Shown: positions 30,360 to 35,196 of the stretch, piece by piece
How positions within the stretch are numbered: position 1 is the stretch's first letter
How the letters are laid out: each line of letters starts with the position of its first letter
Assembly: GCA_945903635.1 (NCBI GenBank)
Contig: CAMDOT010000001.1
Coordinates: forward strand, 1-64,000
DNA length: 64,000 nucleotides
Direction: 5' to 3'
Source of the DNA: Rhizobium sp. Q54
GTDB taxonomy: Bacteria; Pseudomonadota; Alphaproteobacteria; Reyranellales; Reyranellaceae
The notes under the pieces: model-generated
What the model saw: the letters and a program-made list of their open reading frames with translations, nothing else
Databases searched by the model: none
Told to the model about the DNA's origin: nothing
Position numbers and translations under genes: made by a program

Positions 30360-30457
30360 ATTTACTATCACCCGGTGCCTATATGTGCGTGCTCAATTTC
30401 AAGAGAGCACACCCCGCTAGGGAACAAATGACGGGAACTGGGCACGGGGGATCGTCG

Positions 30458-34153
<3,696 letters not shown>

Positions 34154-34231
34154 CCGTGTGTGGCGTAGCGTACCCGCGTAAGCCGGGGCCCTCGCGGTTG
34201 GGGACCTCACAGCTAACCATAGGAGACAGTT

Positions 34232-34288
34232 ATGGCTGCTAAGAAAAAGGCTGCTAAGAAGAAGGCTGATAAGAAGAAGAAGCAGTAG
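34232..34288 (+). CDS. 18-residue lysine-rich small ORF
   Basis: MAAKKKAAKKKADKKKKQ, preceded by AGGAG 7 bases before the ATG. It is 12 of 18 residues lysine, with AAKKK units like the tails of bacterial histone-H1-like proteins. It stands 78 bases after nrdJ and 15 bases before a run of RNA hairpins. The clear ribosome site argues it is translated; the product could bind nucleic acid, or its translation could be the regulatory event for the RNA downstream. Not recognised. Confidence 0.5.
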   Translation: MAAKKKAAKKKADKKKKQ

Positions 34289-34303
34289 ACAGGAAAGGGC
34301 GTA

Positions 34304-34490
34304 GGCCAAGGTTTACCTTGGCCCCTCTAACCAAACGCCTTTCGGCTTCCGCGTGGGTGCCCTCACGGGCCCCACCGGAAGCCACCTTCAGAAGACGAGC
34401 TCAATGCCAACGCGACATCTCCGCTTGCGGAGGTGGAAAGGCGAAACTGGATAAGCGTCCGGCGACTTCGGTCTGCCGGACTCTTTTTTT
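34304..34490 (+). ncRNA. Structured RNA with three-way junction and intrinsic terminator
   Basis: Hairpin 34304-34323 (GGCCAAGG/CCTTGGCC) is followed by a junction closed by CGCCTTTC (34336-34343) pairing with GAAAGGCG (34436-34443). Inside it, stem two 34344-34383 (GGCTTCCG/CGGAAGCC plus GTGGG/CCCAC) abuts the left closing strand and stem three 34416-34435 (CTCCGC/GCGGAG plus flanking pairs) abuts the right one, leaving a 32-base single strand. A terminator hairpin, GTCCGGC/GCCGGAC (34457-34481), ends in seven Ts. Everything is complementary with almost no mismatches. No protein frame fits. It may be a small RNA from the nrdJ-ORF transcript or a leader device; the class is not recognised. 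Confidence 0.6.
34457..34490 (+). terminator. Intrinsic terminator of the structured RNA
   Basis: Seven-pair GC-rich stem 34457-34463 / 34475-34481, then CTTTTTTT-type tract ending at 34490. It also separates the nrdJ transcript from the TetR promoter at 34513. Confidence 0.9.
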
Positions 34491-34512: not shown

Positions 34513-34568
34513 TTGAAGGGGACTAGGTTCCGCTTTACATAGCGGAATATGAATACTGACCATTCAGT
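34513..34568 (+). promoter_or_regulatory. Promoter and TetR-type operator at the efflux operon
   Basis: -35 TTGAAG (34513-34518), 16-base spacer, -10 TTACAT (34535-34540). An inverted repeat ACTGACCATTCAGT (34555-34568) lies just downstream, over the first codons of the regulator gene. Such ACTGA/TCAGT palindromes are usual for AcrR-type repressors, so self-repression is likely. Confidence 0.6.
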
Positions 34569-35196
34569 CAATATCTCTCCTCCGGCGTCCCGGACCCGCC
34601 GGCCGGAGGATCGTGCTTCCGAAATCGCCCGAGCGGCGCTCGAACTGTTCGTCACGCGGGGCTTTGCCGCCACCAAGCTAGAGGATGTCGCCAAGGCCGC
34701 ATCGGTCAGCAAGGGGCTCCCCTACCTCTACTTCAAGAACAAGGAAGAACTCTTCAAGGCGGTCATCACCGAGGCGGTGGGCGGGCCATTGGCCGAGGCG
34801 ACGGACATGATCGACCGCTTCGAGGGCTCGAGCGAAGACTTGCTGCGCGAACTCGTCCGCGGTTTTCGCGCCTTCGAGGAAAGCCCGGCCGGCGGCGTGA
34901 TCAAATTGATCCTGGCCGAGGCTGGCAATTTCCCCGACGTGGCCCGGTTCTACTGCGCCCATTTCGATCTGCGCGGACGCGACCTGTTCATTCGGGCTCT
35001 GCAACGCGGCATCAGGCGCGGTGAATTCCGTTCGCTCGCGAACGTTGACGCGACCGCCATCATCATTGCCCAGCCACTTGCCATGTTCTCGGTCTGGAAG
35101 CGTTCCCTCGCCCCCTACGACCCGACCAATACGATCGATAGCGACCAGTTCTACGCCGCCTACCTCGACTTCATTTTCAAGGGGCTCCATCCATGA
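34549..35196 (+). CDS. TetR/AcrR-family repressor of the RND efflux operon
   Basis: 215 residues. N-terminal HTH: IARAALELFVTRGFAATKLEDVA followed by the recognition helix KGLPYLYFKNKEELFKAV; the rest is an all-helical ligand domain (TetR_C of the AcrR type). It precedes the adaptor gene with a 4-base ATGA overlap, so regulator and pump are translated together. Start 34549 has a weak ribosome site and overlaps its own operator, but no better Met exists. (Quoted helices are parts of residues 25-75.). Confidence 0.88.
   Translation: MNTDHSVNISPPASRTRRPEDRASEIARAALELFVTRGFAATKLEDVAKAASVSKGLPYLYFKNKEELFKAVITEAVGGPLAEATDMIDRFEGSSEDLLRELVRGFRAFEESPAGGVIKLILAEAGNFPDVARFYCAHFDLRGRDLFIRALQRGIRRGEFRSLANVDATAIIIAQPLAMFSVWKRSLAPYDPTNTIDSDQFYAAYLDFIFKGLHP

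Follow-up and report, generated by a model that had tools for sequence, protein, structure and literature searches.

A conserved RNA of limited phylogenetic range lies directly downstream of nrdJ and a very small open reading frame (micro-ORF) in Reyranella, and comparison of its sequences indicates a real, previously undescribed RNA family. We lean, with modest confidence, towards seeing it as the 3′ end of an nrdJ–micro-ORF transcript, whose folded tail would persist as a processed 3′-untranslated region (3′-UTR)-derived RNA, with a CU motif that contacts other RNAs and two folds that compete with each other. Co-transcription, processing and any action on targets are what we infer here, and the idea of a small RNA is plausible.

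A structured RNA downstream of nrdJ

The window (the whole stretch of DNA that was analysed, 64,000 nucleotides) belongs to a genome of Reyranella (Alphaproteobacteria), the genus that also supplies the closest records by nrdJ-containing loci. The features of the locus, all on the forward strand, are as follows.

30383–34153, +, nrdJ, adenosylcobalamin-dependent (class II) ribonucleotide reductase (Pfam PF02867, PF08471 and PF12637; NCBIfam NF005736 equivalog, 2111 bits)
34154–34231, +, leader from nrdJ to the micro-ORF, carrying the near-invariant ribosome-binding stretch CTAACCATAGGAGACAGTT
34232–34288, +, micro-ORF of 18 amino acids, MAAKKKAAKKKADKKKKQ (ATG at 34232–34234; commonest form MAAKKKAAKKKAAKKKKQ)
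34293–34302, +, P0 5′ strand GAAAGGgCGU, predicted alternative upstream partner of the P1 5′ strand and a near copy of P1′ GAAAGGCG
34304–34323, +, hairpin A, GGCCAAGG-UUUA-CCUUGGCC (6 of 10 pairs changed on both sides; 95.6% of cells paired)
34322–34332, +, conserved CU motif CCCCUCUAACC (divergence 0.065 at 34324–34335; also in the sister-genus alignment A3)
34336–34343, +, P1 5′ strand CGCCUUUC, which can pair either upstream with P0 or downstream with P1′ (divergence 0.000, 52 sequences)
34344–34383, +, P2 hairpin, common to sister genera (6 of 17 pairs changed on both sides)
34384–34415, +, three-way-junction joining strand of low conservation (divergence 0.339)
34416–34435, +, P3 hairpin, fast-changing yet kept paired (all 6 scored pairs changed on both sides)
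34436–34443, +, P1 3′ strand (P1′) GAAAGGCG (absent in two genomes, G016 at locus L135 and G451 at locus L174)
34457–34490, +, intrinsic terminator, stem GTCCGGC/GCCGGAC and T tract (96% of cells paired; divergence 0.088; terminator scan)
34549–35196, +, TetR-family regulator (Pfam TetR_N), downstream of and outside the element

The original prediction had placed a three-way-junction RNA with a terminator at 34304–34490, and all of its pieces are present there. The 8-pair closing stem P1 (34336–34343, CGCCTTTC, with 34436–34443, GAAAGGCG), the joining strand of 32 nucleotides (nt) at 34384–34415 and the separate terminator (stem 34457–34463/34475–34481, followed by TCTTTTTTT) were recovered as described. 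The P2 hairpin does stack directly on P1, but the minimum free energy (MFE) fold gives it 17 pairs (8+5+4) instead of 13, and P3 exists with 8 pairs instead of 9. Two features had been missed: hairpin A, and 34293–34302 as a further strand with which the P1 5′ strand could pair. The MFE is −96.4 kcal/mol, compared with −62.9 ± 4.6 for 200 dinucleotide shuffles (z −7.3, no shuffle as good), and across 16 homologues the mean z is −6.8 from hairpin A to the terminator and −6.7 for the junction core. By contrast, the leader ahead of the micro-ORF is not unusually structured (mean z +0.75 against shuffles, 16 homologues), so the structure is specific to the stretch from hairpin A to the terminator. 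A leader hairpin or start-codon hairpin suggested by alignment folding was rejected, as the leader is no stabler than its shuffles and the pairing is absent in sister genera.

A terminator scan returned a single terminator-like site, at the 3′ end of the RNA, and none between nrdJ and the micro-ORF, which makes read-through from nrdJ the simplest source of the RNA. A scan for promoters of the sigma-70 type found none, which leaves room for promoters of other types.

Conservation, covariation and range

Compensatory changes in homologues, named as a check in the original prediction, occur in hairpin A, P2 and P3. In an alignment of the whole unit (32 sequences), 96.3% of cells are paired; 19 pairs changed on both sides (shuffles give 9.1, sliding the partner strand 3–10), and 66 cells carry both-side changes where 17.4 are expected. 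These pairs are spread evenly over hairpin A, P2 and P3 (six each), and a 45-sequence core alignment agrees. Column pair 110/122 of alignment A1, in P3, is CG in 21 sequences and UA in 20. P1 has no such pair: over 52 sequences its 5′ strand is invariant and its 3′ strand nearly so, so that covariation neither proves nor refutes this helix. Conservation stops at the T tract, with a divergence of 0.52 in the spacer just beyond it compared with 0.09 in the terminator.

That the RNA belongs to no known class was borne out by cmscan of the window, which gave 0 matches to the 4227 families of Rfam 15 at the gathering threshold. A relaxed threshold added only weak chance matches (two animal lncRNAs and DUF805b), and the sister-genus loci gave nothing convincing in Rfam. 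The suggestion of a stable small RNA outside the described classes therefore fits the sequence, given the absence of an Rfam match, conservation next to an unalignable spacer and compensatory changes in A, P2 and P3. A literature search found nothing on Reyranella RNAs or on RNAs downstream of nrdJ.

The region is present once in its own genome, and DNA searches found it in nearly all genomes of the genus at 78–98% identity. A covariance model of the junction (R1) matches the fold after nrdJ in 62 of the 65 Reyranella genomes searched and in one genome of the sister genus g280; the three genomes that it misses are 71–84% complete, and one of them (G027) is contig-broken at this place. Over 385 genomes of the class, R1 gave just three matches beyond family members, all near noise level. 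Contigs of G027 (L140, L141) and G049 (L011) break inside the unit, as if strong hairpins had disturbed assembly.

A micro-ORF under coding constraint

The micro-ORF encodes a small, basic, lysine- and alanine-rich peptide of 18–22 amino acids across homologues, and its pattern of substitution indicates that it is under coding constraint. Of its distinct changes, 9 are synonymous and 7 nonsynonymous, where 18% synonymous would be expected, and every lysine is retained in the 18-residue forms. Divergence at codon positions 1, 2 and 3 is 0.009, 0.037 and 0.100, compared with 0.124, 0.107 and 0.274 in nrdJ. Upstream, the ribosome-binding stretch (34215–34232) has a divergence of 0.008, against 0.165 in the rest of the leader.

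The micro-ORF follows nrdJ in all Reyranellaceae genera examined, as well as in another family of the order, and in Reyranella it occurs in every intact locus except L139. In that locus (genome G033), the C-terminal cysteine motif of nrdJ joins the pre-P1 sequence directly, without the micro-ORF, either through deletion or as an assembly chimera. A scan of 58 nrdJ loci found no such ORF outside the family. Orthologues of 21–22 amino acids match no Pfam or NCBIfam family, DUF1127 included (the 18-amino-acid form is too short to scan). At locus L177 (G061, from another family of the order), a micro-ORF after nrdJ (MAAKKKAAKKKATKKAAKKKKM) is followed by two unrelated long hairpins. Locus L185 (genus g278) has, on the minus strand at 2329 and 2622, a second, longer Lys/Ala-rich ORF of about 50 amino acids or more in tandem after the micro-ORF, with a similar leader.

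Histone H1-like proteins that start with MAAKKK are encoded elsewhere in Reyranella genomes (L186–L188, L193, L195, L197 and L198), and at L189 and L196 the same lysine-rich start is fused to a biotin carboxylase-like protein. The histone H1-like proteins share with the micro-ORF peptide the MAAKKK start and a KKAAKK composition but are 44–100 residues long, have Arg-rich ends and lie at other loci with other flanks. The MAAKKK loci were rejected as copies of the element, because they encode these longer histone-like proteins or biotin carboxylase-like N-terminal extensions and carry no copy of the RNA.

Two strands predicted to compete for the P1 5′ strand

We folded 32 homologues both as the full RNA and as a transcript cut just after P2, before P1′ has been made. 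In the cut transcript the P1 5′ strand is predicted to pair with P0 in all 32, with a mean probability of 0.90 (range 0.69–0.96), whereas in the full RNA it is predicted to pair mostly with P1′ (mean 0.91; above 0.6 in 30 of the 32). The strand stays upstream in the full RNA of L122 and of L173 (sister genus) and is shared in L010. The predicted probability that the CU motif is unpaired is 0.95 in the cut transcript and 0.43 in the full Reyranella RNA. In a typical homologue, the P0 partner does better than only some 92% of the sequences obtained by shuffling its purine-rich stretch. The exchange of this strand between P0 and P1 is a good lead from modelling; we grade it as a lead because it is a thermodynamic prediction that about 8% of shuffles equal and because the homologues, which count as related rather than independent, share ancestry.

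Two genomes, G016 and G451, keep the P1 5′ strand CGCCTTTC though P1′ is lost, so the invariant strand seems to have a role other than P1 alone. The three-way junction of the original prediction thus holds as a fold but is not the whole story: P1 is narrowly distributed, invariant and, in the predicted folds, rivalled by P0, and P1′ is missing from these two genomes.

A simpler RNA in sister genera

In the genera g42 (which includes Vineibacter terrae), g278 and g279, nrdJ is followed by the ORF and then by a simpler RNA without P1′ and P3, consisting of a GATTGGC-CCCTCTAACTGAT-GCCAATC hairpin with the CU motif CCCCUCUAAC in its loop and then P2. The CU motif, predicted to be unpaired with a probability of 0.64–0.87 in these genera, is kept across genera with differing hairpins (alignment A3). 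P1 is restricted to Reyranella and g280, and is weaker in the latter. In g279 a separate terminator comes after P2; in g278 (L185) a T run directly follows P2, which may itself be the terminator.

A model built from the other genera only, without Reyranella (R2), finds the nrdJ-adjacent site in six of the eight Reyranella genomes tried (G448, G451, G022, G016, G059 and the genome of the window) and does not find it in G015 and G043. In the genome of the window, its single match is weak (34319–34382, E 0.54), and over the 385 genomes of the class it returned only family members and near-noise matches. From the R2 matches in Reyranella we conclude that, most likely, the first half of the Reyranella RNA is homologous to the sister-genus RNA and the three-way junction was added later. 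The sister genera would then document the conversion of a hairpin-plus-P2 tail into a three-way junction, a useful natural series for the study of change in RNA folds. An apparent covariation of P1 in Vineibacter terrae (GCCAATC with a downstream GATTGGC) was set aside: that downstream strand is missing from the three remaining members of the genus group, and the match may be chance.

The downstream gene and the riboswitch reading

The element had been described as lying between nrdJ with a small ORF and the TetR–RND promoter. The upstream linkage proved general, but only 27 of the 51 genomes have a TetR-type start next, and the other 24 have something else; in several of the non-TetR Reyranella genomes inspected this is a FemAB-like gene, as it is in sister genera. 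A riboswitch or attenuator for the downstream TetR–RND genes, for which the original description left room, would suit a highly structured element upstream of TetR in the window, but we consider it highly improbable. The RNA has its own terminator, P1, P2 and P3 share no strand with the terminator stem, full folds keep the terminator separate and the spacer beyond it is unconserved; the element travels with nrdJ and the micro-ORF while the gene downstream changes. A palindrome, ACTGACCA(G/T)TCAGT, at 34549–34575 overlaps the first TetR codons. It is conserved among Reyranella genomes with TetR at this place, and its sequence suggests an autoregulatory operator within the start of the coding region.

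A candidate 3′-UTR-derived RNA and its rivals

In the mechanism that we favour, RNA polymerase would read from nrdJ, or from a nearby unrecognized promoter, through the micro-ORF and stop at the terminator at 34457–34490. The folded tail (hairpin A, P1–P2–P3 and the terminator) would protect the 3′ end, and RNase cleavage near the stop codon of the micro-ORF would most likely leave the tail as a stable 3′-UTR-derived RNA. The conserved CU stretch CCCCUCUAACC is the likely contact site with other RNAs; the motif CCCCUCUAAC matches an anti-Shine–Dalgarno sequence only in part. Before P1′ is synthesized, the P1 5′ strand would sit on P0 upstream, with the CU motif left accessible; once the Reyranella RNA is complete, the strand would normally move to P1, and the freed AGGG could pair with the CU motif.

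The main rival, which we judge unlikely yet deserving of serious weight, is a plain structured 3′ UTR whose fold does no more than keep 3′ exonucleases out and terminate the transcript of nrdJ and the micro-ORF, without acting in trans. The fast change of P3 and the joining strand, the loss of P1′ in two genomes and the terminator-like T run after P2 in g278 would all suit such an element. A pure stability element, however, needs neither the fixed sequence of CGCCUUUC (divergence 0.000) nor the nearly fixed CU motif, which is kept across genera despite different hairpins. That the region is a DNA-level or chance feature (a repeat, a mobile element or an artefact of composition) is scarcely credible: the region is G+C-rich, but it is a single copy in the genome, its z is −7.3 and its compensatory changes lie far above both controls.

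A cis-acting switch has a small chance of being right. In this reading, the P0/P1 exchange would respond to a signal, for instance the binding of the Lys-rich peptide, and so set the decay or translation of the micro-ORF or nrdJ. In its favour, each of the 32 folded homologues has two near-identical strands in competition for a single invariant one, and a small basic peptide is encoded on the same RNA; against this, the role of P0 is a prediction with weak shuffle support, neither the P0 nor the P1 conformer overlaps the terminator or the ribosome-binding site, and the sister genera are arranged differently. A further reading, to which we give similarly low odds, is a bistable tail. Here P0 and P1′ would compete for the invariant 8-nt strand, the CU motif would be open during synthesis and closed in the finished junction, and the Lys-rich peptide would bind the RNA and set the balance, tying nrdJ expression to the regulation of other mRNAs.

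Comparison with known systems

The RNA family is unlisted, has good evolutionary support and is linked both to a class II ribonucleotide reductase and to a tiny conserved ORF. The nrdJ RNA motif of Rfam likewise occurs with genes for class II ribonucleotide reductase, but upstream of nrdJ, whereas the Reyranella RNA lies downstream; cmscan of the window gave no Rfam match.

Cuckoo RNAs carry CCUCCUCCC in their hairpin loops, and the CcsR class is further marked by an RpoHI/HII promoter and by RNase E processing. CcaF1–CcsR1–4 of Rhodobacter sphaeroides (cuckoo RNAs, CIN1 locus) resemble the Reyranella unit in that structured RNA and an intrinsic terminator come after a small basic ORF. They differ in having a DUF1127 ORF, four RNAs and CCUCCUCCC, where Reyranella has an 18–22-amino-acid Lys/Ala peptide, one RNA and CCCCUCUAAC, after nrdJ. 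Neither the DUF1127 ORF nor the CCUCCUCCC loops are found in the Reyranella unit. In Rhodobacter, a single transcript provides a small RNA-binding protein and 3′-UTR sRNAs cut by RNase E, with a Rho-independent terminator at the end, and arrangements of the CcaF1–CcsR type are often found in alphaproteobacteria (PMC10253847, PMC8625941). The lack of DUF1127, the different motif and the different gene neighbourhood place the Reyranella RNA outside the CcsR family; by analogy, the best reading is that it works like CcaF1–CcsR, as a processed 3′-UTR RNA.

The alpha-r14/NfeR1 and SmelA075 sRNAs of Rhizobiales likewise combine drifting hairpin stems with a fixed CU-rich unpaired motif (PMC10746234, PMC3927594). 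Such motifs are established silencing seeds in NfeR1 (alpha-r14; PMC10746234) and have been noted in SmelA075/A099 (PMC3927594). Unlike the Reyranella RNA, which has one other motif and is ORF-adjacent, these sRNAs have three or four hairpins with CCUCCUCCC and are described as trans-encoded. If the Reyranella RNA is processed and trans-active, the arrangement of a small basic protein with its own 3′-UTR RNA, described with DUF1127 proteins, would extend to an unrelated peptide.
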